A stretch of DNA of 38,447 nt from positions 1-38,447 of IMG/VR virus record IMGVR_UViG_3300005753_000005. One strand, written 5' to 3'. Shown here one piece after another: positions 5,596 to 33,084 of this stretch. The first letter of the stretch is position 1; each line of letters begins with the position of its first letter. Origin of the DNA: a virus. The notes under the pieces were generated by a model. It was not told where the DNA came from. It ran no database searches and saw only the letters and a list, made by a program, of their open reading frames with translations. The translations under genes and the position numbers were made by a program.

Positions 5596-6057
5596 ATGAA
5601 GGACTGTTACATCGATGGCATTGATGCACTCCAGGAAATGTGCAATGGGTACGGTAGTCAGCAGATTGCATACCAATTGATTGAGGTAGATGGGATATGG
5701 CATGGCAAATCGTTAGAGCAGGGCGCGGCGCGTGTTCGGGCGTGTAAATCCCGTAGTAAACCGGAATTTTTTCATCTGGCTGAGATCATTGCGATCACCA
5801 ATTTCACTCACCGCTATGACGGTGTGTTTTTCATTTGTGATGAGTTGGGGTTATCCCGGCCGCATCCGTTGTCACTGGAGCAGCTAACCAGTCAGTTGCG
5901 TGATAGCGTCGAAACTGCGGCGGCAGCGCTGGTGAATGCCACGGATATGATTGGCAAATTAGCGCAGTTACCGTCTGATCCCCCCACGACGTTGCCGCTA
6001 CCGCGTGCCGTTCAGTTTAGTCAGGGAGTCCCTTGTGCCGCGGGCGCAGTGGAATGA
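5596..6057 (+). CDS. CII-like phage regulatory protein (putative)
   Basis: 153 residues, four bases after the Cro-like gene. The region from about 40 to 85 (SLEQGAARVRACKSRSKPEFFHLAEIIAITNFTHRYD) resembles the CP76/CII-type phage regulatory family, where a helix-turn-helix-like core is followed by a residue run on developmental choice. The C-terminal 50 residues are Ala/Leu-rich and helical. Position (after cro, before O) is exactly that of lambda cII. I rate the family call as tentative because no motif is diagnostic. Confidence 0.5.
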   Translation: MKDCYIDGIDALQEMCNGYGSQQIAYQLIEVDGIWHGKSLEQGAARVRACKSRSKPEFFHLAEIIAITNFTHRYDGVFFICDELGLSRPHPLSLEQLTSQLRDSVETAAAALVNATDMIGKLAQLPSDPPTTLPLPRAVQFSQGVPCAAGAVE

Positions 6058-6967
6058 CGAGGAAGACGCGGCACTTCAAGGGTTGCCGCATCTGGCGCAG
6101 TTGCTGTATTTGCGGTGTTTGCGTCGCCACATGGATTATCGAACCGGGGTGGTGGGTCAGGTGAGACGGGTCAGTTATCAGATGTTTAAGGAAGTGTTGG
6201 AAGTGGAGCGCAAGCGGGGCAGCAAGATCAATGAGCTGCCACTCACGAGAAAGCAGCTACGCGTGGCATTGGATCAGTTAGAGGCGGCGGATCTGGTTAT
6301 CAAGATGGCCAAGCCCTACCAAACGTCCCCCGTTTTGCTGTTATTACCGTTGGCGAATTGTGATGCAGATTTTGAAAAAAACAGTGAAAACGGCAACGGC
6401 GCGTTGATCCGTCCAAATGAGGAAGGGCCGGGGAAGGGCCAAGCAAGAAGGGCCAAAGGAAGGGCCAAAGAGGAACCCGCGGTTACACCTTTATATGTGA
6501 ACGATTCAGCGCCTCAACCGGAAGCAGGAAGGGCCAAAGGAAGGGCAGGGGAAGGGCCAAAGAGGAAGGGCCTACCTCCGGTTCTTCCGTTATTAGATAG
6601 ACAGTTAGATCCCGACGCCGTGCCTGAGTTGGGAGAGGCCCTGCAAATATTAATCGAGGGTGGTGTGTATCCACGGATTGCAATGAGCGGTGACCACAGG
6701 CTGAAATTGGTGGATTTACTGAGCATTGGTGCAACGCGAGCGATGCTGGCAGAAGCCTGTGTGCGTGCAGCACGTGCCAAGCGTGGTAGCCCGTTCAGCG
6801 TGTTCTATCTCGAACCCATAATCAGCAAGTTGCTGAATCCAAATCCAACTAACGGCAATCGTGGAGGCAAGCATGGAAAAACGAAATTGTCCGCACGCGA
6901 GCGTGCCGCCAACAGCCTGGGAGGAGATCGGGTACGTGACGAACCGACCAGCAAAGATAACGGATGA
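6035..6967 (+). CDS. Lambda O-like replication initiation protein
   Basis: 310 residues from the GTG at 6035, which has GGGAG six bases upstream; the first conserved segment PRAQWNDEEDAALQGLPHLAQLLYLR begins right there. The N-terminal 100 residues fit the winged-helix replication proteins found before P-like loaders in temperate phages (YLRCLRRHMDYRTGVVGQ, then a LTRKQLRVALDQLEAADLV helix-turn-helix). The middle (about 130-190) is a low-complexity Gly/Lys/Arg/Pro region encoded by iteron-like repeats, probably the origin. The C-terminal 110 residues resemble a helical partner-binding domain. It overlaps the CII-like gene by 23 bases and extends past the start of the P-like gene. Confidence 0.75.
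   Translation: MPRAQWNDEEDAALQGLPHLAQLLYLRCLRRHMDYRTGVVGQVRRVSYQMFKEVLEVERKRGSKINELPLTRKQLRVALDQLEAADLVIKMAKPYQTSPVLLLLPLANCDADFEKNSENGNGALIRPNEEGPGKGQARRAKGRAKEEPAVTPLYVNDSAPQPEAGRAKGRAGEGPKRKGLPPVLPLLDRQLDPDAVPELGEALQILIEGGVYPRIAMSGDHRLKLVDLLSIGATRAMLAEACVRAARAKRGSPFSVFYLEPIISKLLNPNPTNGNRGGKHGKTKLSARERAANSLGGDRVRDEPTSKDNG
6423..6572 (+). repeat. Iteron-like clusters, probable phage origin inside the O-like gene
   Basis: AAGGGCC occurs at 6423, 6434, 6448, 6460, 6529, 6552 and 6566, with a one-mismatch copy (AAGGGCA) at 6541. The two clusters of four have spacings of 11, 14 and 12 bases and of 12, 11 and 14 bases, close to one helical turn. An AT-richer stretch (about 6484-6505) lies between them. 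Direct repeats inside the initiator gene are how the lambda origin is built, so this is the best origin candidate. Confidence 0.6.
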
Positions 6968-7519: not shown

Positions 7520-8365
7520 ATGAAGACAGCACATTTATTTGCAGGTGCCGGTGGTGGATTACTCGCTGATCTCATACTTGGACATCAACCCGTGCTCGCG
7601 GTCGAATGGGACAAAAATTGTTGTGACGTTCTCAGAAAACAAAGTGATGAATGGTTTCCAAATCTGCACGTGCACGAAGGGGATGTGCGGTTGTTCGATC
7701 CATCCGAGTGGGCGGGACGCGTGGATTCAATCCATGCGGGCTTCCCTTGTCAGGATATTAGCGCCGCAGGAAAAGGACGTGGAATCACAGGAAAACGAAG
7801 CGGCCTCGTTAGCGAGGTATTCAGAGCAATTGATGTTATTCGGCCTCGATACGTTTTCCTTGAGAACAGCCCACGAATCAGGACAAGGGGACGCCACATT
7901 GTTATCAGAGAACTTGTTTCGCGCGGATATGCCTGGCGCGACGGAATACTTGCCGCGTCTGGAGTTGGAGCATGGCATAAGCGGGATAGATGGTGGTGTC
8001 TCGCTGCCAACACTGACGGTTTGCGGGAATTACAACAGAAAAGGGGCATCCCCAACGAGTGGCGATGGTCTCATGACGGTACTGAGGAAATTACCGACTC
8101 TCTGTGCAAGAGATGCGAGAACGGTGGCAGGTTCACAACCCCAGAAACGTGCAGCAACATCGGGCGACCCACTCACGTGGCACCTGGGGAAATCACTGGA
8201 GCCGGAACGCCGACGTGGTTTGAAGTTGAACCCAATGTGGGCCGCTTGGTTTATGGGGTGGCCGATGCACTGGTTCCGGGTGCGGTCAAGGCATTAGGAA
8301 ATGGACAAGTGCCGCTTCAAGCTGCTGTTGCGTTTTTGCTCTTGGGTGGGTTCGTTGGCTTTTAA
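7520..8365 (+). CDS. C5-cytosine DNA methyltransferase
   Basis: 281 residues with the ordered motifs of m5C methyltransferases: motif I HLFAGAGGG (5-13) for AdoMet binding, VEWD (28-31), motif IV GFPCQ with the catalytic Cys77, motif VI ENSP (115-118), motif VIII-like HKRDRWW (153-159) and motif X GNGQVP (260-265). The target recognition region between VIII and X is short, so the protein is smaller than most family members. It may protect phage DNA from host restriction. From about 7734 to 8297 the same DNA also encodes a recognisable protein in the +1 frame (see separate entry). The dam-like gene follows immediately. Confidence 0.9.
   Translation: MKTAHLFAGAGGGLLADLILGHQPVLAVEWDKNCCDVLRKQSDEWFPNLHVHEGDVRLFDPSEWAGRVDSIHAGFPCQDISAAGKGRGITGKRSGLVSEVFRAIDVIRPRYVFLENSPRIRTRGRHIVIRELVSRGYAWRDGILAASGVGAWHKRDRWWCLAANTDGLRELQQKRGIPNEWRWSHDGTEEITDSLCKRCENGGRFTTPETCSNIGRPTHVAPGEITGAGTPTWFEVEPNVGRLVYGVADALVPGAVKALGNGQVPLQAAVAFLLLGGFVGF
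7734..8297 (+). CDS. Gene nested in the methyltransferase, +1 frame
   Basis: This open frame lies wholly inside the cytosine methyltransferase gene and is open from 7539. The start is uncertain; ATG 7734 (187 residues) is chosen because the conserved-looking part begins there, while ATG 7683 and 7647 are alternatives and none has a strong ribosome site. The product has features seen in phage proteins annotated near or fused to methyltransferases: APQEKDVESQENEAAS, LPTLTVCGNYNRKGASPTSGDGL, a second LPTLCARD repeat, and the C-terminal LNPMWAAWFMGWPMHW (typically LNP-x-W-x-x-W-L-M-G-W-P). Both frames carry family-like sequence over the same bases. The function is unknown; a frameshift fusion with the methyltransferase N-terminus is an alternative. 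Confidence 0.55.
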   Translation: MRASLVRILAPQEKDVESQENEAASLARYSEQLMLFGLDTFSLRTAHESGQGDATLLSENLFRADMPGATEYLPRLELEHGISGIDGGVSLPTLTVCGNYNRKGASPTSGDGLMTVLRKLPTLCARDARTVAGSQPQKRAATSGDPLTWHLGKSLEPERRRGLKLNPMWAAWFMGWPMHWFRVRSRH

Positions 8366-8370
8366 GAGTG

Positions 8371-9006
8371 ATGGGAAAAGTGAATAAAGCGCAATACATC
8401 AACCAAGACTCTGGCGACTTTGAATACTACTCGCCGATTAAGTTCATCGAAGCCTCCCGTGAGGTAATGGGTAGCATTGATCTCGATCCTGCGTCGAGCG
8501 AAATAGCGAACACGAGGGTTATGGCGGATGAATATTACAATTTGCGGATGCGTTTTTTTCAGGACAAAAAAGAGGGGCTGAGAAATCTAGCCGATATAAA
8601 TGGAGGATTAGATCGTGATTGGTATGGCAACGTGTGGATGAATCACCCATTTTCAAGAACTGAAGCGCCATGCAAGGATAATTGCGAAAAACAAATTTGC
8701 CAGAAACGCGGGTACCACACATCGATACCAATACCGGGTAATAAAGAGTGGATAGAACGGTTTGTTGACGAGTACGAAAATGGAAATGTGAATCAGGCGT
8801 GCTGTATTACCTACAGCAACACCTCTGAAACGTGGTTTAAGCCGCTTCTAAATTATCTCCAATGTTTCGTTTATGGCAGGGTGAATTACTATCTGCCTGA
8901 CGGCACAATAAAGCAGGGGGTGACAAAAGGCTCCGTTGTTACCTATCTCGGAAATAACACGGAGAAATTCAAACAGGCGTTTAGCAAGTTTGGAAAAGTG
9001 AAATGA
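8371..9006 (+). CDS. Dam-like phage N6-adenine methyltransferase
   Basis: 211 residues from ATG 8371 (GTG 8368 is possible). The pattern fits the phage DNA N-6-adenine methyltransferase family: SIDLDPASSE (DPAS at 39-42) at the AdoMet site, an EYYNL segment, and GNVWMNHPF with NHPF (91-94) in the place of the usual catalytic DPPY/NPPF-type motif. The substitution is normal for this family. A Cys-rich insert, CKDNCEKQIC (101-110), follows. The gene starts six bases after the cytosine methyltransferase and probably shares its transcript; together they would give two kinds of modification to phage DNA. Confidence 0.85.
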   Translation: MGKVNKAQYINQDSGDFEYYSPIKFIEASREVMGSIDLDPASSEIANTRVMADEYYNLRMRFFQDKKEGLRNLADINGGLDRDWYGNVWMNHPFSRTEAPCKDNCEKQICQKRGYHTSIPIPGNKEWIERFVDEYENGNVNQACCITYSNTSETWFKPLLNYLQCFVYGRVNYYLPDGTIKQGVTKGSVVTYLGNNTEKFKQAFSKFGKVK

Positions 9007-24028: not shown

Positions 24029-25045
24029 ATGCGAAATTATGCACCGCTAGCACGGGGCGGATACGATTTGGGTAAGGCGTTTGCGATGGCGCCACAGATG
24101 GAATCACAAGGGGCAGGCAATGCCATGGCCAACGCGATCCGTGATGCGTTAAACCAAGCGCGGATCGGCAAGGTGAACAGTGAGACGGATCTGAATCAAC
24201 AGCGTCTCGCCGGCGTGGATTCGGGGCGGCAGATGTTTATGCAGGGTGCGACTGGGTTGGCGCAGCCGCAGTTAAATGAATTGGCGCAGGCGATGACGCA
24301 AGGGTTTCCGCAAGTGCCGGCCGAGGGTCCCCCGACACCCGATGGCCAGTTTCCGACCATGACGGATCGGCCCGACTGGGCCTCACAGCCCGTGATGGAT
24401 CAGTTTAATCAGGCGCAAATGGCGCTGGGGGCGAACATGGCGGGCACGGGTAAAACCCATGGTGAGCAATTGGTGGCGGCGATGCAAGGCGCGGCCAATC
24501 TGGGACGACAAAATCAGATGATCGCAGGCACGCTGGATCCGAACCGGGTAGCGCCAGCGATGGCTGCAACGGCAGGGAAACCGATTGTTGATGTGACCGG
24601 CAGCGGGATCGCGTTTAATCCCTATGGCGATGTAAATCATTTGAATACCGCACCGTTTGAACAGGCAAACCAGTCAAAAGCGCAGTCTCGCATTGACGCG
24701 GTAATCAATCGGGTAAGGGCAACGGGTAACAGCCTGCCCGCCGAAGCGAAGCTTTTAGAGTACTACATGAGAAAGGGCGAGCCGTATGAAACTGCGAAGG
24801 AATTGGCTCGTTCGCGCAAGAACGTGCCACTTCGCCAGTTGGCGATGGAAGCGTATCAAAGTGCGCTGCAAAACATCTTAATGATGGAGCCACCCGAGGG
24901 CATGAGTGAGGAAGAGTTCCAGACCTATGCAAACCAACAGGCAGAACAAAACGCTACGGCCACGGTGGAGTTCCTGAACTCGAATCGCAAATTATTTGAA
25001 GGGGAGCGCGATGCCGCACCTGATCCATTGGGGTTATTCAAATGA
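24029..25045 (+). CDS. Internal virion protein, unknown class
   Basis: 338 residues, no transmembrane segment. It begins MRNYAPLARGGYDLGKAFAMAPQMESQG, followed by a helical, Ala/Gln/Met-rich region and a C-terminal helix (MEAYQSALQNILMMEPPEGMSEEEFQTYANQQAEQNATATVEFL). The position between the gp14-like gene and the giant virion protein suits an internal or ejection protein. It overlaps the giant gene by four bases (ATGA). Confidence 0.6.
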   Translation: MRNYAPLARGGYDLGKAFAMAPQMESQGAGNAMANAIRDALNQARIGKVNSETDLNQQRLAGVDSGRQMFMQGATGLAQPQLNELAQAMTQGFPQVPAEGPPTPDGQFPTMTDRPDWASQPVMDQFNQAQMALGANMAGTGKTHGEQLVAAMQGAANLGRQNQMIAGTLDPNRVAPAMAATAGKPIVDVTGSGIAFNPYGDVNHLNTAPFEQANQSKAQSRIDAVINRVRATGNSLPAEAKLLEYYMRKGEPYETAKELARSRKNVPLRQLAMEAYQSALQNILMMEPPEGMSEEEFQTYANQQAEQNATATVEFLNSNRKLFEGERDAAPDPLGLFK

Positions 25046-28000
25046 AACTGCCAGAGTTCCGCCAACAGTATCCGCAGTACGATCACGTTGATGATGCACA
25101 ACTGGCGCAACGTCTGCACAGTACGTATTACGCGGACATGCCGTTTGAGGCATTCAGCCAGCAAATTGACTATACCCCTGCCGTTGGCAATGCGGGCCAA
25201 CAGCTCGCAACGGCAATGGTGCCCGCGGTAACCGATGTTGCACCGCAAAATGATAACGTACCTCAGCCTGGGGGTATCGGACGGATTGAAACTGCACTGA
25301 GTCAATATTCGCGTGGTTTTGGAAATGTGCTATCAAGCATTCCTAAAAGTACGGGGATACTGGAATCGCAAGGGGGTCCGGACGTATTGGCACTCATGGA
25401 TCGGATGGACACGGGGGAGATAGTTAGAGACTTACCCGTAGACATTTATCAAATGCATGATTTATTTAATTACCAAAGACAACCCGATATGCGTGCAGAA
25501 TTACGCACAAAATATCAATCATTGTCGCAAGGACCAGAAAAGACAAAGGCCTATCAACTGGGCAAAGTTATTGACGACTTTTTTGTCAAAAATACCCGAG
25601 TGAGCCCACAGTATGGCGATGAGTTCTTTTCCGGTCAATTACCCCAAGGCTTGGGTTCCACACTGGGATTTGCTGCCATGGCGGCAGTTACCCGAGGTCG
25701 AGGGGGAGCTGTGCAGTTTGGTACCACGGCGGCAACCGGTGCTGCCGTGCAAGCCGCCAGCAGTTTTGAAGATGCAGTTAATCACGGTGCCAGTCTGGAA
25801 GATGCGTATAAGGCATCGAAGTACGGCGCTATGATCGGTACCACTGAAGCTCTGCCAATAATGTCGATCCTGAATCGTATCGATAAAGGCAGTGGGGGAA
25901 CGGTAAAACGCATCATTACCGATACGATTAAATCAGGTACTGAAGAGGCCGTGCAGGAAGGTATACAGGGGATCTTGGACAATCTGAATGCCAGCACATT
26001 CGTGAAGTACGATCCCGAGCGAGATACGTGGGCCGGTACTGGCGATGGTGCTGGGGTTGGTTTTACCACCGGTGCTCTGATCCAGTTGCTCGGCAGCCTG
26101 GCGGGCTTGAAGATGAAACCCAACAAAGGGAGAGAATTGGGACGGGCGATGCAGGAAGCGGTGGACAATAAACAGCTTACGAGCGAAGACATGAAAATGT
26201 TGGCTAGCAATCCTGTGGCTGATCTGGGCCAGATTATGGCCCGTGCCTCGGGTACACAGGCAAATATTCAGCAACCCACCCCGCAGGGACCACCTGTGCA
26301 ACAGGGTGTGATGCCGTTGGGTGGTGAGCAAAATGCGCCACCCTTAAACGTGGATCCTGAGACCGGGGAAATATTGAACCCATCAGTTCCCACCACAAAA
26401 GTGGTACCAAAACCGGAAATGAGTGTCGATGCCGCGTTTCAAACCTACCGACAGTTGAACCCGCAAGATCGCCAGTTGGCTGATCTTGCGCAAACTTTTG
26501 ATGGGCGCCTGGATCCTGCCCGACTCGAATCCATTATCGAACGAACTGCAACTGAAACAGAAGGACTTAGCGATGAGCACTTTCAAACACAACTCACCGA
26601 AAACATCCGACACGCAATCGACCCAACAGCGGGAACAGCGGATCGAACGCGCCCGGCACCTGTTGAATATCGGTCAACTGGTACACCGCAACAAACCCCG
26701 GCCCAAACCCACGCCGTAGCCACTCAACTCGCACCAACTAATGAGCTGGGGAAGGCAATGGTGGCTGCCATCAGTCCACAGGTGCAACCTCAACCCGCGC
26801 CGAAAGTTAAAGAGCCCGCCGCTCAACTCGGTGATGTGTCCCGTCAAGCGAGCACGGCGAGAGTCCAGAACACACAACCCACCGGAAGCAGGGATGGCAA
26901 TGCGGCTGTTAGTGTCGGGCGCCAAGGAACACAAGTGCCCGCACCGACGGCGAAGGATAAAGCAGTTATTGCGGATTTCGGTGAGAAAATTGGAGGTGCG
27001 AGGAAAGATACTTACCAGCGACTGCAAGCATCCCTGTCGGATACGCTGCCAGATGATATCGGTGAAATAACGTTAGCCAAGTATTTTCCAGAGCCTGACT
27101 ATAAATTACTGAAGGAAGCAGGTTTGTCGGTTGAACAAGTTGCCTTTATCGATGCCGCCAGAAGTGAAATTCCACCGAAACCAAGGAAAGCATACAAGCG
27201 CCAAAAATGGGTGAAAAACTTGGCGGTTTACCGGGATTTGGTGAATGCGATTATCGCGGATCCAAAAGCCGATCACTATGCCAACAAGGTGATCGACATT
27301 TTGATGAAAGGACGCGATATTGGACAAGACACCGTGAATACCAAATCACTTGAGCCCTTAGTGGAAAAGGCAAAGCTTAGTATTGAGATGGGGTTTCCAG
27401 AAACACCAAGCGCCAAACATTACCAAATAGAAAAGGTTCACTTCTCAAAATACGATGGTGAGGAAAATGTCGATAAATGGGAATTAAAAAACACCAAGCT
27501 ATCGGGTGGTTTTGGTGGATTACAAAATACAGCTCACTTTGACACACGTGATGAGGCAATCAATGCCCTAAAAATTGCAATGGCGGTTGAAAAGTCGAAG
27601 CCAATAAGTAAGCAGGTTAATTTTGATATTTGGACTGAGCGTAGATCGGACAAGGGGTTTATTATTGGAAAAAAGATTGCCACGAGAAAATTTGTCGAAT
27701 TAAAATCTGGCTTTAATAGCGCACAGGAAGCTCGGGACTATATTGCCAAGCACCAGGAAAATCTTGAGCGTGAACTTACCAGGAAGAAAGAAATCCCCGC
27801 ACATCGTCGGGAAGTGAATAATACGCGGATCGGCAAAGATCACCGCAACGGTGTCGATGTGACACCGGAGCAATTTGGGGAAACGTTCGGCTTTCGGGGG
27901 GTTGAGTTTGGAAATTGGGTTGAGCAAGAAAAACGACAAAATGATCTCAATGATGCGTATGACGGCTTGTTGGATTTGGCCGGTATTCTGAGTATTTCAC

Positions 28001-31000
28001 CCAAGGCAATTTCATTAAACGGTGAACTGGGTCTGGCGTTTGGTGCCCGGGGTAAGGGGAAACGTGGTCCCATTACGCCGACGGCCCATTATGAGCCTGG
28101 AAAGGTTGTGATTAATCTGACCAAGAAGCAGGGCGCAGGTTCGTTGGCACACGAATGGTGGCATGCACTGGATAATTATTTTTCGCGTGCACGAGGCGAT
28201 AAAGCGGGGTATGTAACGAGTTCGCCTAAAAAACGTGAACATATAGAGGGTAAGTGGCAATACAATCAGAACATACGGTTAGAGGTGGTGGAGGCGTTTG
28301 ATAATGTCGTCAACGCCATTGTCAAGACAGATCTAATAAAGCGGTCCAAACAGTTAGACAAAAAACTAACAAAAGATCACTGGTCAACCCGAATTGAATT
28401 GACGGCACGCGCGTTTGAAAGTTATGTGATCAACAAGTTAGCGGAGCGGGGGGCTGAAAGTGATTATCTGGCAAATGTTATCTCTGAAGATGTTTATAAC
28501 GTTATTTCAGATATAGCGGGTGAGTCGGATATTGATACTTATCCCTATATCAAAAGCAACGAAATGGAAGGTGTGGTGAAAGCGTATGATCATTTGTTTG
28601 AAACGCTAAAAACCAAAGAAACAAAAAAAGGCACGGCGCTTTTCTCCAAACTCGGCCCTCGCGTCGATCAGGAAGCCTTTGCTGATGTTGCCAAGCTCTA
28701 CAATAATATACGTCATCACGATCAGATGTCGCAGTATAAAATATCAGAATCTGAGAGTTTACCGACCATCGCCCGCGATATTTACGATGGTGTGGTGGTG
28801 AAGTTGTGGGACAATCCGATGGCGGGCCAGCGTGATTTGGATGGGGTGGTGATGACCCGGTCGTGGGTGATGTCGGTTCCCACGGGGTTACGGTCCGATG
28901 GAGAGGACAAAATGAGCCAGGTGTTCATTACTGAACGCAAAGATGGCACGGTGTACATTAATATCAGCAATTTCAAGCAAGGTACCGGCGGCAGCCTTGT
29001 TTACCACATTGTGGCAAATTATGCTTACAATAATAATAAGGTATTTGTTGCCGATCCAGATGGGTTAAGCGCGGTCTCGTTGCGGCGGCGCACTTCGAAT
29101 ATGTTGTCATCGGCGCTGAAGTTCGGTACCACGCGGCATTTACGCCCGCACACTTCCCAGGTAGAAGGGCTGGAAGAGGTGCCACCGTTGGCCTGGATAC
29201 CCGGTGATGATGCGCACAACATTACCAGTTTACTCAAAACCGAGTACCAGACGGTGATGAATGTCGTTCCAGAAATGGCCAATATCGTCTATGATATTAA
29301 ACAAGGAAACTTCATCGACGAGAATGACCATGACAAGCACGTTACAGAAATTGCTTTCCGAAAACTCGCTCAGTCCCCAGGAGCTAGAAAGGCAAGAGCG
29401 GGGCGCGCAACTCTTAAAAGAACGGCTCTCGCACATGCCCTGGTACGCGAAGCAAGCGGAGACGGACGGCGACGAATTTTGGCGGCAGTTATTCGCGAGT
29501 CGAGTCAACATTTACCAGCCGGATTAAAACGAATACTTTATTCCAGACCCACAAGCCCCGCAATCGCGGGGCTTTCTGTTTCTGACATCGAAAAAATCAT
29601 TGCACCGGTCATGCTCAAATGGGGCACGAATGCACCTCGCGTGGAGGTGGTGGCCGATCTGGCGTCGGTACCAGAGCACGTGGTGGATGCGGATGCGCAC
29701 GCTGACTCGCGGGTGGAGGCGGTGTTTGATCCAAACGACCGCACGGTTTACCTGGTGGCCGATGGATTGTCACGCGATCGGGTGTTGCGGGTATTGGCGC
29801 ATGAGGCAGTCGGGCATCACAGTATGGCGGAAATGTTGGGTGATGATTTCATCACGCTGATGGACCGGGTGCAGTGGTTGAAAAAGTCGGGCAATCAGAC
29901 CATTGGGGATGTCGCCAAGGAAGTGCGCCAACGTTATGGCAAGCTGGACCTGGTGCAGGAGAGCCAGGAAATTATTGCGGTAATGGCCGAAAAAAAGGTG
30001 AAACACCCGGTATTTAAACGGGTGATGACGGCGATTAAGAAATTCCTACGTCGGCTCGGGATTGCGTTGGAATTTTCGGTTTCGGATTTGCAGGGCATGA
30101 TTGCCAAAGCCGGGAAACGGTTGCAGCGGGATGTCAAAGGCGAAGCGCAATCCGATCGCCGCTCACCCAGTAAGGCGATGTTCTCCCGCCCAGATAACGA
30201 GGTGGCCAAGGACATCGAGCAGTTGGCAAGCGACGCGCCGACGTTTAAGGAATGGGTTGGCAAAGCGAAGTCTGCCGCGTTGGACGACACCCGGCCAGCG
30301 TGGTTGGGCACCCTCACCCGGTTGCATTTGGAGGACGTGGGTAAGGACGTGTTACCGCAAATCACACCCTATGTGAAGCTGGCGCAAAAGATGGATGCCG
30401 ACCGCAATAATTTGGTGAGTGAGGCGGCTGAAGTGGCGCAGGAATGGACAAAGTTCATGAGTCAGGATGCGAAAGCCGCCGATACGCTGGCAGGTTTGAT
30501 GCACGAGGCTACCATCGCGGGGGTGGATCCGGCCGAACCCTACAAGGCGGTCGTGGATTTTAAGGAGGCCAAGAAAAAAATTTCGTTGTTGCGCCTGCAC
30601 ATGCGTCAACGATCAGGAGAAGGAACGGGCAAGTGGCAGATCCAGGTGGACGAGTTGATAGCGCTCATGCAATTCGAGACCGCCCGCGCCCCCAAGTATG
30701 CCGCATTGCGACACCAGTATCTGGCGTTGCCAGCAGCGGCAACAAACATTTATCACAGTGTGCGCGATATGTATCAGGCCCGTTTCGATGCCATTCAAAA
30801 AGCGCTGGAAGCCAGAATCGACCGGGCTGAATTGAGTCAGGCTGAAAAAACGAAATTCAAACATGAGCTCCGTCTGAAGTTTGAGAGCGCCCAGGTGCAG
30901 GCACCCTATTTTCCGTTGGCGAGATTTGGTGATTATTGGGTCTCGGTGAAAAAGCCGGGTAACTGGCAATCAACGTATGAAATCGTGAACGTGGGTAAAA

Positions 31001-33084
31001 ACTGGGGGGTGACGTATGCGAACCAGCGCAGGATATTGTCACAGTTTAATACTCGCGCCGAGGCGTTGGACTGGGTCACCGACAAGACCATGAAAACGGA
31101 ATTTGAGATGTTTCGCCGTTCGTTCGAGGCCCGCAAACACGCAAAGTTGATGAAGGCCAAAGGGTATGGCGTCACGCAGGGGGCAAAACTGGAGAACATT
31201 CAGGCGGTGCATGGCGCAAGCGCGAGCGCGAGCTTTGTTGCGGATGTGATCGCGATCGTGAACCCATCCGGTAGCCGGATCGGGGACCAGGTGGCCGACA
31301 GTATTTACCAACTGTTTTTATCTACGCTGCCAGATATGTCGGTGAGAAAACATTTTGTCCACCGCAGTAAAACCAAAGGTTACAGTCAGGATGCATTGCG
31401 CGCATTTGCTAATCAGACGTTTCATGGTAGTTACCAGTTGGCCAAGTTGCGGTATGCCGATAAGTTGGAGGCGCTGCTAGAGAATATGAAGGATTCCCTG
31501 GCGGCGTCGGCCGATCCGTATAAAGCATCGCATATTTTAAACGAGCTGCAAAAACGCCATGAGTGGGCGATGAACCCAACTTCTGCGCAGTGGGCCAACA
31601 TGGCCACCAGCGTGGGATTTGTCTGGTATCTCGGGGTGTCGCCGTCGGCAGCACTGGTGAATGTCACGCAAACGGCTCTGGTGGCGTTGCCGGTGATGGG
31701 CAGCAGATACGGTTTTACTCGCTCTGCGGCAGAACTAACAAAGGCGAGCACCGATTATTTTAGCGGTGGGTTTGATATTGAAAAGTCACTCGATGGTGAT
31801 GAGTTACGCGCCTATCGCCAGTTGGTAGAAGAAGGGGTGATCGACAAGACCCTCGCCCACGATCTGGCCAGCCTGTCTGAGTCTGAGCGCAGTATTTATT
31901 CCACCAAGAAAGCGAAAGTGATGGCGGGAATTTCATTTCTGTTTCATCACGCGGAGAAATTTAACCGCGAGGTGACTTCGATGGCGGTGTATCGGTTGGC
32001 ACGCAAGAAAGGCTTGGGACACAACACTGCCGTGGATGAGGCTCGACACTTAACCTACGAGTCCCATTTTGATTATTCCAGTGCCAACAAACCCCGCTTT
32101 ATGCAAAATGATTGGGCCAAAATATTCCTTATCTTTAAACAATACACGGTGAACATGTGGTATCTGCTGGGGCGCAATCTGCAACAGTCCTTTAAGGGAG
32201 AGAGTAGGGTGGTGCGTCGTGAAGCGCAGAAAAAGCTGGCGGGGATCCTGGGCATGCACGTGGTGGCGGCGGGCACCATGGGTTTCCCAATGTTCTGGGT
32301 CGTGGAGGCGGTGTTAAACGCGGTATTTGATGATCCAGATGAGCCTTGGGATTTTAAAACGGAATATCGGAATTTTCTGGCGGATTATTTTGGTAAAGAG
32401 GCCGCGGAAGCAATAGCCAACGGTGTTGGGAATGCGGCGGGTATTGATTTGCACAGCCGGGTGAGCCTGAATGAGTTGTGGTTTCGCAGTCCGGATCGGG
32501 AGCTGGAGAGTCGAGCGACGGTGGGCTATTGGTTGGAACAATCTGCTGGGCCATTGGCAGGGATCGCGGTCAATGCCGGACGTGGACTTGATTTGATGCA
32601 CGAAGGACATGTAGTACGAGGTATTGAGGCTGCCACACCCAAGGCGATCCGCGATGGAATACGGGCGCTGCGGTATGCCGATGAAGGCGGGGTGATCTCG
32701 CTGCGTGGTGATGAAGTGGTGGGAGATTTGGCGGCCTGGGAGTTGGGTATGAAAGCGATTGGTTTTTCACCTGCCCGTGTGAACCGACAATACGACGCCA
32801 ATCGAAGCTTGCGGAATTATGAGCAGCAGATCCACAAACGTCGGCAATTGCTAATTAATCGTTGGTACTTGGCCTGGCGTACCCGCGATCGTGAGGGAAT
32901 GCGAGATGGGATTAAGGAGATCCGCCGCTTTAATAGCAAGAACCGGCGCAACGCGATCAGTATGGACACGTTGCGGCAGTCATGGAAAACACGGCGACGC
33001 TTCAGCCATGAAAGTCGTGCCGGGGTGCATTTAAACAAACGGGATGCGCACTTGCGTGGACGTGTGAGGTTTGGTGATGAGTAG
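25042..33084 (+). CDS. Giant polyvalent virion protein (PLxRFG, two zincin motifs)
   Basis: 2680 residues, one uninterrupted frame, the largest protein here. Visible modules in order: a hydrophobic segment (about 204-238); a Pro/Gln-rich disordered linker (about 410-640); an LPD1-like region with a metallopeptidase motif HEWWH (1037-1041); a nuclease- or peptidase-associated domain with SQVFITERKDGTVYINISNFKQ (about 1291-1370); a second zincin motif HEAVGH (1587-1592); PLARFG (1958-1963), the PLxRFG signature; a hydrophobic stretch about 2184-2225; and an LPD38-like C-terminal domain (about 2290-2500) with a membrane-like segment at 2399-2428. Such proteins are packaged and ejected, acting on the host envelope or host defences. 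Which activity each domain has is not shown here. Confidence 0.8.
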   Translation: MKLPEFRQQYPQYDHVDDAQLAQRLHSTYYADMPFEAFSQQIDYTPAVGNAGQQLATAMVPAVTDVAPQNDNVPQPGGIGRIETALSQYSRGFGNVLSSIPKSTGILESQGGPDVLALMDRMDTGEIVRDLPVDIYQMHDLFNYQRQPDMRAELRTKYQSLSQGPEKTKAYQLGKVIDDFFVKNTRVSPQYGDEFFSGQLPQGLGSTLGFAAMAAVTRGRGGAVQFGTTAATGAAVQAASSFEDAVNHGASLEDAYKASKYGAMIGTTEALPIMSILNRIDKGSGGTVKRIITDTIKSGTEEAVQEGIQGILDNLNASTFVKYDPERDTWAGTGDGAGVGFTTGALIQLLGSLAGLKMKPNKGRELGRAMQEAVDNKQLTSEDMKMLASNPVADLGQIMARASGTQANIQQPTPQGPPVQQGVMPLGGEQNAPPLNVDPETGEILNPSVPTTKVVPKPEMSVDAAFQTYRQLNPQDRQLADLAQTFDGRLDPARLESIIERTATETEGLSDEHFQTQLTENIRHAIDPTAGTADRTRPAPVEYRSTGTPQQTPAQTHAVATQLAPTNELGKAMVAAISPQVQPQPAPKVKEPAAQLGDVSRQASTARVQNTQPTGSRDGNAAVSVGRQGTQVPAPTAKDKAVIADFGEKIGGARKDTYQRLQASLSDTLPDDIGEITLAKYFPEPDYKLLKEAGLSVEQVAFIDAARSEIPPKPRKAYKRQKWVKNLAVYRDLVNAIIADPKADHYANKVIDILMKGRDIGQDTVNTKSLEPLVEKAKLSIEMGFPETPSAKHYQIEKVHFSKYDGEENVDKWELKNTKLSGGFGGLQNTAHFDTRDEAINALKIAMAVEKSKPISKQVNFDIWTERRSDKGFIIGKKIATRKFVELKSGFNSAQEARDYIAKHQENLERELTRKKEIPAHRREVNNTRIGKDHRNGVDVTPEQFGETFGFRGVEFGNWVEQEKRQNDLNDAYDGLLDLAGILSISPKAISLNGELGLAFGARGKGKRGPITPTAHYEPGKVVINLTKKQGAGSLAHEWWHALDNYFSRARGDKAGYVTSSPKKREHIEGKWQYNQNIRLEVVEAFDNVVNAIVKTDLIKRSKQLDKKLTKDHWSTRIELTARAFESYVINKLAERGAESDYLANVISEDVYNVISDIAGESDIDTYPYIKSNEMEGVVKAYDHLFETLKTKETKKGTALFSKLGPRVDQEAFADVAKLYNNIRHHDQMSQYKISESESLPTIARDIYDGVVVKLWDNPMAGQRDLDGVVMTRSWVMSVPTGLRSDGEDKMSQVFITERKDGTVYINISNFKQGTGGSLVYHIVANYAYNNNKVFVADPDGLSAVSLRRRTSNMLSSALKFGTTRHLRPHTSQVEGLEEVPPLAWIPGDDAHNITSLLKTEYQTVMNVVPEMANIVYDIKQGNFIDENDHDKHVTEIAFRKLAQSPGARKARAGRATLKRTALAHALVREASGDGRRRILAAVIRESSQHLPAGLKRILYSRPTSPAIAGLSVSDIEKIIAPVMLKWGTNAPRVEVVADLASVPEHVVDADAHADSRVEAVFDPNDRTVYLVADGLSRDRVLRVLAHEAVGHHSMAEMLGDDFITLMDRVQWLKKSGNQTIGDVAKEVRQRYGKLDLVQESQEIIAVMAEKKVKHPVFKRVMTAIKKFLRRLGIALEFSVSDLQGMIAKAGKRLQRDVKGEAQSDRRSPSKAMFSRPDNEVAKDIEQLASDAPTFKEWVGKAKSAALDDTRPAWLGTLTRLHLEDVGKDVLPQITPYVKLAQKMDADRNNLVSEAAEVAQEWTKFMSQDAKAADTLAGLMHEATIAGVDPAEPYKAVVDFKEAKKKISLLRLHMRQRSGEGTGKWQIQVDELIALMQFETARAPKYAALRHQYLALPAAATNIYHSVRDMYQARFDAIQKALEARIDRAELSQAEKTKFKHELRLKFESAQVQAPYFPLARFGDYWVSVKKPGNWQSTYEIVNVGKNWGVTYANQRRILSQFNTRAEALDWVTDKTMKTEFEMFRRSFEARKHAKLMKAKGYGVTQGAKLENIQAVHGASASASFVADVIAIVNPSGSRIGDQVADSIYQLFLSTLPDMSVRKHFVHRSKTKGYSQDALRAFANQTFHGSYQLAKLRYADKLEALLENMKDSLAASADPYKASHILNELQKRHEWAMNPTSAQWANMATSVGFVWYLGVSPSAALVNVTQTALVALPVMGSRYGFTRSAAELTKASTDYFSGGFDIEKSLDGDELRAYRQLVEEGVIDKTLAHDLASLSESERSIYSTKKAKVMAGISFLFHHAEKFNREVTSMAVYRLARKKGLGHNTAVDEARHLTYESHFDYSSANKPRFMQNDWAKIFLIFKQYTVNMWYLLGRNLQQSFKGESRVVRREAQKKLAGILGMHVVAAGTMGFPMFWVVEAVLNAVFDDPDEPWDFKTEYRNFLADYFGKEAAEAIANGVGNAAGIDLHSRVSLNELWFRSPDRELESRATVGYWLEQSAGPLAGIAVNAGRGLDLMHEGHVVRGIEAATPKAIRDGIRALRYADEGGVISLRGDEVVGDLAAWELGMKAIGFSPARVNRQYDANRSLRNYEQQIHKRRQLLINRWYLAWRTRDREGMRDGIKEIRRFNSKNRRNAISMDTLRQSWKTRRRFSHESRAGVHLNKRDAHLRGRVRFGDE
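29324..29527 (+). CDS. Possible nested gene in the giant ORF, +1 frame
   Basis: A 67-residue frame from ATG 29324 (or 29330), inside the giant gene. It reads MTSTLQKLLSENSLSPQELERQERGAQ, then LLKERLSHMPWYAKQAETDGDEFW, a balanced, well-folded-looking composition, ending IYQPD. Its stop at 29527 is followed 26 bases later by a terminator-like hairpin. The main frame over the same DNA is Ala/Arg-rich but resumes recognisable polyvalent-protein sequence (ILYSR, then SVSDIEKI) soon after. The ribosome site is weak (AAGGAA about 14 bases upstream). It could be a real overlapping gene or a shadow frame. Confidence 0.35.
   Translation: MTMTSTLQKLLSENSLSPQELERQERGAQLLKERLSHMPWYAKQAETDGDEFWRQLFASRVNIYQPD
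29553..29575 (+). terminator. Terminator-like hairpin inside the giant gene
   Basis: AAGCCCCGC, loop AATC, GCGGGGCTT: nine perfect pairs, then TTTCTGTTTCT. It lies within an 8-kb coding region, where a terminator would cut the message unless transcription is antiterminated. It follows the nested frame's stop at 29527. Confidence 0.5.

Follow-up and report, generated by a model that had tools for sequence, protein, structure and literature searches.

A conserved gene in the +1 frame of a phage C5-cytosine methyltransferase gene probably encodes the second subunit of the enzyme

M.AquI (CYCGRG) is a two-polypeptide C5-cytosine methyltransferase, a natural split in which the recognition end and motif X lie on the small chain. 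In M.EcoHK31I, the small polypeptide, of about 176 aa, reportedly comes from an alternate frame within the gene for the large one, an arrangement that Lee, Kam and Shaw are said to have described in 1995. Two required proteins seldom share a long same-strand overlap, and such cases are usually difficult to prove. M.EcoHK31I (YGGCCR) consists of two polypeptides, the large one carrying motifs I-VIII and X and the small one carrying motif IX, and its predicted recognition domain was placed in the large subunit (PMC3404938). A different kind of out-of-frame protein, an HNH endonuclease, has been described in mycobacteriophage methylases, as in ShiLan (PMC11855218).

Here, we analysed a 38,447-nucleotide stretch of viral DNA (the window) in which one gene very probably specifies both subunits of a C5-cytosine DNA methyltransferase of the M.EcoHK31I type, written into one stretch of DNA in two frames. 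The frame-0 product is referred to as alpha and the +1 product as beta. As in M.AquI, the putative recognition end lies on the second chain; unlike M.AquI, whose small chain holds motifs IX and X, motif X stays on alpha. Like M.EcoHK31I, the locus has a large chain with motifs I-VIII and X, a small chain with a motif IX whose direct-match statistics are weak, and a small-chain gene that is nested out of frame within the large one, as is reportedly the case in M.EcoHK31I. In contrast to the placement of the recognition domain in M.EcoHK31I (PMC3404938), the corresponding alpha segment is predicted to be disordered and the recognition-like units are found in beta. The locus fits the M.EcoHK31I type by its anatomy, as compared by description. 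As in ShiLan, a phage DNA methylase conceals a second protein in a different frame, but instead of an inserted homing endonuclease this protein would be a part of the methyltransferase itself, and it covers most of the gene. The Pfam matches of 31 beta family members included no HNH family (two weak DUF matches, one member each, were found), and a hidden homing endonuclease was rejected in the absence of any HNH match in beta.

Table 1. Features of the methyltransferase locus (window coordinates)
Feature	Position	Strand	Remarks
Alpha gene, C5-cytosine methyltransferase, 281 aa	7520..8365	+	Frame 0; motifs I-VIII and X; no motif IX and no folded recognition domain
Alpha catalytic core	7520..8014	+	Motif I FAGAGGG; motif IV GFPCQD; motif VI ENS; motif VIII HKRDRW
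Catalytic Cys77 of alpha	7748-7750	+	Within motif IV GFPCQD
Alpha segment between motifs VIII and X	8027..8254	+	Unfolded in the model; variable among homologues
Alpha motif X (ALGNGQVPLQAAVAFLLL)	8291..8347	+	Helical in the model, pLDDT mostly 78-93
GNGQVP of alpha motif X	8297-8314	+	Frame 0
Whole +1 open frame	7524..8297	+	Long-form beta possible from TTG 7539 (252 aa)
Beta gene, short form from ATG, 187 aa	7734..8297	+	+1 frame; putative motif-IX/recognition subunit
Internal ATG	7734..7736	+	Made by codons CAT GC(N) of HAGFPCQD
Beta unit LPTLTVCGNYNRKG	8004..8045	+	First of two LPTL units; alignments A1, A2
Beta unit LPTLCARD	8091..8114	+	Second LPTL unit; alignments A1, A2
Beta motif IX LNPMWAAWFMGWPMHW (putative)	8226..8273	+	Family pattern LNPxWVEWLMGWPIGW
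TAG stop of beta	8295-8297	+	+1 frame

The sequence fixes the motif layout of the two frames (Table 1). Alpha contains all the catalytic motifs of a C5-cytosine DNA methyltransferase, namely I, IV (PCQ), VI (ENV/S), VIII and X, and it matches phrog_363 (3.6e-51). Its match to PF00145 (3.8e-30) is confined to profile positions 1-165 of 324. In an alignment of 82 alpha sequences (alignment A3), G74-Q78, E115, N116, R155 and R157 are invariant and the GN.QVP of motif X is nearly so. In the structural model, residues 1-165 and the motif X helices are confidently predicted, with pLDDT mostly 92-98 in the core, and residues 180-240 are disordered, with pLDDT mostly 40-60. A Foldseek comparison of this model with M.HhaI gave an E-value of 5e-15 over 170 columns, M.HhaI having 327 residues, which is in keeping with a catalytic domain alone. 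Since the PF00145 match stops at 165 and the stretch from motif VIII to motif X is disordered in the model, alpha does not carry motif IX or a recognition domain in one chain with the core. Amino acid identity in frame 0 falls to 0.21 between motifs VIII and X, compared with 0.64 in motifs IV-VIII, and the bases of this variable segment carry, in the +1 frame, the LPTLT units and most of the putative motif IX.

A first-pass annotation, made from the letters of the window, had called 7734-8297 dual-coded, with methyltransferase motifs kept in the main frame to its end and a second, family-like protein in the +1 frame. Its coordinates and peptides proved exact: the +1 frame runs from ATG 7734 to the TAG at 8295-8297 (187 aa) within the frame-0 ORF 7520-8365, and GNGQVP is present in frame 0 at 8297-8314, beginning at the very base where the +1 frame ends. 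Throughout the family, variable LPTPT units precede LNPxWVEWLMGWPIGW at the end of the +1 protein; two LPTL units are found in the window and one to several in other members. W172 and P177 of the putative motif IX are invariant in 114 sequences, and the same bases that spell LNPMWAAWFMGWPMHW in the +1 frame spell VEPNVGRLVYGVADAL in frame 0, followed there by GNGQVP. PHROG 1008 is a match for 30 of the 31 beta family members (best 7e-31). We also observed matches to the +1 beta or its C-terminus in PHROG 1008, PHROG 26627 and PHROG 27243, families that carry the label DNA methyltransferase or unknown.

Both frames proved to be under coding constraint. For the window gene alone, synonymous-codon shuffling gave P = 0.0029 for 187 stop-free codons and P = 0.0009 for a +1 run of at least 257 codons. 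Scanning IMG/VR with the frame-0 protein alone yielded 75 loci; almost every one that was inspected had a +1 frame open along the gene and encoding a recognisable protein. Stops were counted from HAGFPCQD to just before motif X in 48 non-redundant homologues chosen by the frame-0 protein alone, and 3 were observed in the +1 frame against 154 +/- 10 expected under synonymous shuffling, a depletion of about 50-fold. The +2 frame of the same homologues contained 542 stops against 460 expected, and the alpha tail beyond the overlap contained 31 +1 stops against 18 expected; stops are thus avoided in the +1 frame, and only within the overlap. These unconditional counts replace a tally of zero +1 stops in 172 loci, which was circular because those loci had been picked for an open +1 hit. 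The first-pass annotation had named a lack of +1 homologues and freely arising stops as the observations that would speak against a second gene; hundreds of homologues were found, with almost no stops.

The constraint extends beyond the short form of beta. Upstream of the internal ATG (window 7734), the family has 7 +1 stops against 78 expected, and third-base identity is raised (0.51), so +1 coding reaches the alpha start in the family. In pairs that have diverged to 25-60% identity, third-base identity at four-fold sites was 0.39-0.71 in the overlap up to motif IX, with 0.71 over motif IX, 0.51 in the variable region and 0.32 after motif X. Mean column entropy of the +1 frame over motifs IV-VIII was 1.55 compared with 2.10 in synonymous shuffles (sd 0.01), a figure that could mislead by itself because shuffling also wipes out shared ancestry. 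The frame-0 codons under the last +1 motif are fixed to the forms that spell it: GGG 54 times, GAT, AAT, CAT or TAT where the +1 frame has Met, and GCC, CCC or TCC where it has Pro. Differences between the window and one relative (L002) fall on codon positions 1, 2 and 3 in the pattern 60/18/48, as expected if two frames are selected at once.

We considered whether base composition and frame-0 conservation might have left the +1 frame open by chance. Some +1 motifs do follow in part from conserved frame-0 residues, and shuffled genes still reach a median of 65 bits against the +1 profile; real genes, however, reach a median of 165 bits, and the stop depletion, the codons fixed to the form that spells motif IX, and ordinary methyltransferases of the same genomes, which show none of this, leave chance with hardly any probability. 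A chance ORF is refuted at the level of sequence. Its pattern of conservation marks the +1 frame at 7734-8297 as a genuine and conserved second gene within alpha, one of the two readings that the first-pass annotation had offered.

A profile of 31 +1 proteins (alignment A1) was run on viral contigs and on one genome per bacterial species. It returned 144 loci, a sample not fully independent of the methyltransferase because one of the peptide patterns of the search spans motif IV (the other spans the +1 C-terminal motif); 142 of the 144 lay in the +1 frame of a C5-methyltransferase, and the remaining two were single ORFs together with the methyltransferase motifs. As a control, E. coli Dcm was scored along with ordinary C5-methyltransferases from ten of these genomes; these enzymes carry +1 stops at the expected rate and have no beta homologue, whereas the alpha-type methyltransferases of those ten genomes do have one. 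Neither tblastn of the window +1 protein against phages (at E 1e-3) nor an IMG/VR scan with that single sequence found a match, and beta homologues surfaced only through frame-0 homologues and then a profile. An assembly artefact was ruled out, as the layout recurs in hundreds of assemblies, including complete genomes.

Public records that we examined mostly list alpha alone, as does RefSeq for an E. coli prophage copy. A 94% copy of the Salmonella phage S9-5 pair was observed in the chromosome of E. coli PT62, from pigeons, at 1254489-1255226 (L240), with alpha alone annotated. In Paenibacillus phage Shelly, the nested ORF, gp56, is annotated as 'g55 internal gene'; neither that record nor PHROG 1008 ('DNA methyltransferase'), which corresponds to the beta family, states a function for the nested protein or links it to a two-subunit enzyme. 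In the literature that we searched, we found no description of the breadth of this family in phages and prophages, of the paired start codons or of recognition-like units in beta.

Of 188 loci, 142 have a +1 ATG shortly ahead of motif I; relative to a possible start codon of alpha, its commonest positions are 4 nt downstream, 5 nt upstream and 7 nt downstream. Such paired starts in different frames, 4-7 nt apart (ATGAATG, ATGAAATG), were observed family-wide (for example L004, L009 and L013), and in most relatives a single ribosome-loading site could serve both proteins. The internal +1 ATG, which corresponds to window 7734, is present in all 73 loci with HAGFPCQ, and the His of HAGFPCQD is encoded by CAT in 62 of 62 loci, compared with 37% CAT among other His codons. 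Two beta isoforms, one from the paired start and one from the conserved internal ATG, are possible. The window and its nearest relatives have no paired upstream +1 ATG; beta of the window probably starts, with some uncertainty, at ATG 7734 or at a TTG such as that at 7539.

The lack of a +1 ATG near the alpha start in the window subgroup, together with the occurrence of one-chain fusions in relatives, would suit a programmed frameshift, in which translation starts in alpha and shifts to the +1 frame to give a chain of the alpha catalytic core and the beta recognition end. We regard this as very unlikely. In the majority of loci beta has its own ATG next to the alpha start, every HAGFPCQ locus retains the internal ATG, the +1 constraint begins at the alpha start, upstream of any plausible shift site, and a shifted chain would lack motif X, a motif that frame 0 retains. 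No frameshift is needed to make beta, since a possible alpha start has a +1 ATG at a distance of 4-7 nt in most homologues. Between the two readings that the first-pass annotation had offered, the overlapping gene pair stood and the frameshift product did not; its suggestion of an alternative target-recognition end was right in substance, in that the +1 protein carries the putative motif-IX/recognition part.

The last motif of beta, LNPMWAAWFMGWPMHW, matches motif IX in position and pattern, with weak statistics for the direct matches. Motif IX of ordinary enzymes resembles RRLTPRECARLMG (Dcm). When one-chain and split relatives were aligned to Dcm, RLSAAFAEWMMG fell on RRLTPRECARLMG (motif IX), with a weak P of 0.034, and the GNGVVP that follows the +1 motif fell on motif X. 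The beta C-terminus of Samy matched PF00145 at positions 275-322 (E 0.057, likewise weak), and a PDB search with a motif IX-X profile gave chance hits only. The order of the parts is a stronger argument for motif IX than these weak direct matches. In one-frame relatives (L185, L222 and L228), a beta-like C-terminus lies in the same chain between motif VIII and motif X, immediately ahead of the latter. In Firecracker gp6/gp5 (L224), Gladiator gp87/gp86 (L237), Samy 49/50 (L227) and L170, alpha ends after motif VIII, and a second chain, in the +1 frame or separate, has the recognition end, IX and X; the annotated overlap is partial or absent. These four, partly overlapping or adjacent, have the M.AquI layout. 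Judging by the fused and split relatives, the family therefore comprises one enzyme in fused, split, partly overlapping and fully nested versions. We also observed that in L222 (2483-2992 and 2212-3528) and L228, which are actinophage loci, frame 0 holds motifs IX and X in one chain and the +1 frame nonetheless retains the SETWPTSG..LLPTP part; these loci are possible intermediates between the nested and fused forms.

The position of beta-like sequence between methyltransferase motifs VIII and X in the fused and split relatives also bears on whether beta might be a separate accessory protein, for example a regulator or partner of the methyltransferase, rather than its recognition/motif-IX subunit. 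Beta alone has no family or structure match in Pfam, NCBIfam or solved structures (PDB), and it does not fold alone in the model (114 sequences; pLDDT 58, pTM 0.31), both of which an accessory protein would accommodate; the low-confidence model also fits a partner-dependent subunit, without proving one. Given that placement, and an alpha that lacks this part, we consider an accessory role unlikely.

Under the two-subunit reading, alpha would provide the AdoMet-binding catalytic core with the active-site Cys and motif X, with disordered filler in the place of its recognition domain. Beta would supply motif IX and most likely also the target-recognition elements, namely the variable LPTLT... units; by docking onto alpha, it would complete the enzyme. 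In most relatives, both subunits would start at a shared ribosome-loading site, from start codons 4-7 nt apart in different frames, and the conserved internal ATG (7734 in the window) would give the option of a second, shorter beta. That beta is expressed, forms a complex with alpha and recognises the target is inferred, as is the biological use of the enzyme; for the window phage, the likely use would be methylation of its own DNA against host restriction.

The window record is a 38-kb virus with a repressor, a P-like helicase loader, terminase, portal and tail proteins, a gene content like that of a temperate tailed phage. Another DNA methyltransferase gene (phrog_111) was observed at 8368-9006, starting 2 bases past the end of alpha. 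The ORF at 6005-6967 contains, at 6424-6570, repeated AAGGGCCAAAGGAAGGGCC-like units that give a GRAKGRA-type low-complexity stretch, and a single ORF of 2680 aa spans 25042-33084, unusually long for a 38-kb phage record.

Collectively, these findings lead us to favour, with some reserve, the view that an old and very widespread phage family places the whole target-recognition part of the enzyme in the +1 frame of the catalytic subunit itself, the starts being interleaved. If so, specificity would evolve in one frame, with the other tolerating filler over the same bases, and few same-strand gene overlaps in bacteria and their phages would be as long or as widely conserved. The long overlap is well supported by sequence from hundreds of genomes, and the job of the hidden ORF would be to complete the very enzyme that it overlaps. 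It would follow that a subunit is missing from many records of phages and prophages in which one 'DNA cytosine methyltransferase' is annotated, that cloned alpha genes may look inactive and that methylome motifs may have been credited to half an enzyme. The family would also offer a natural system for studying the constraint shared by two frames while target specificity changes.
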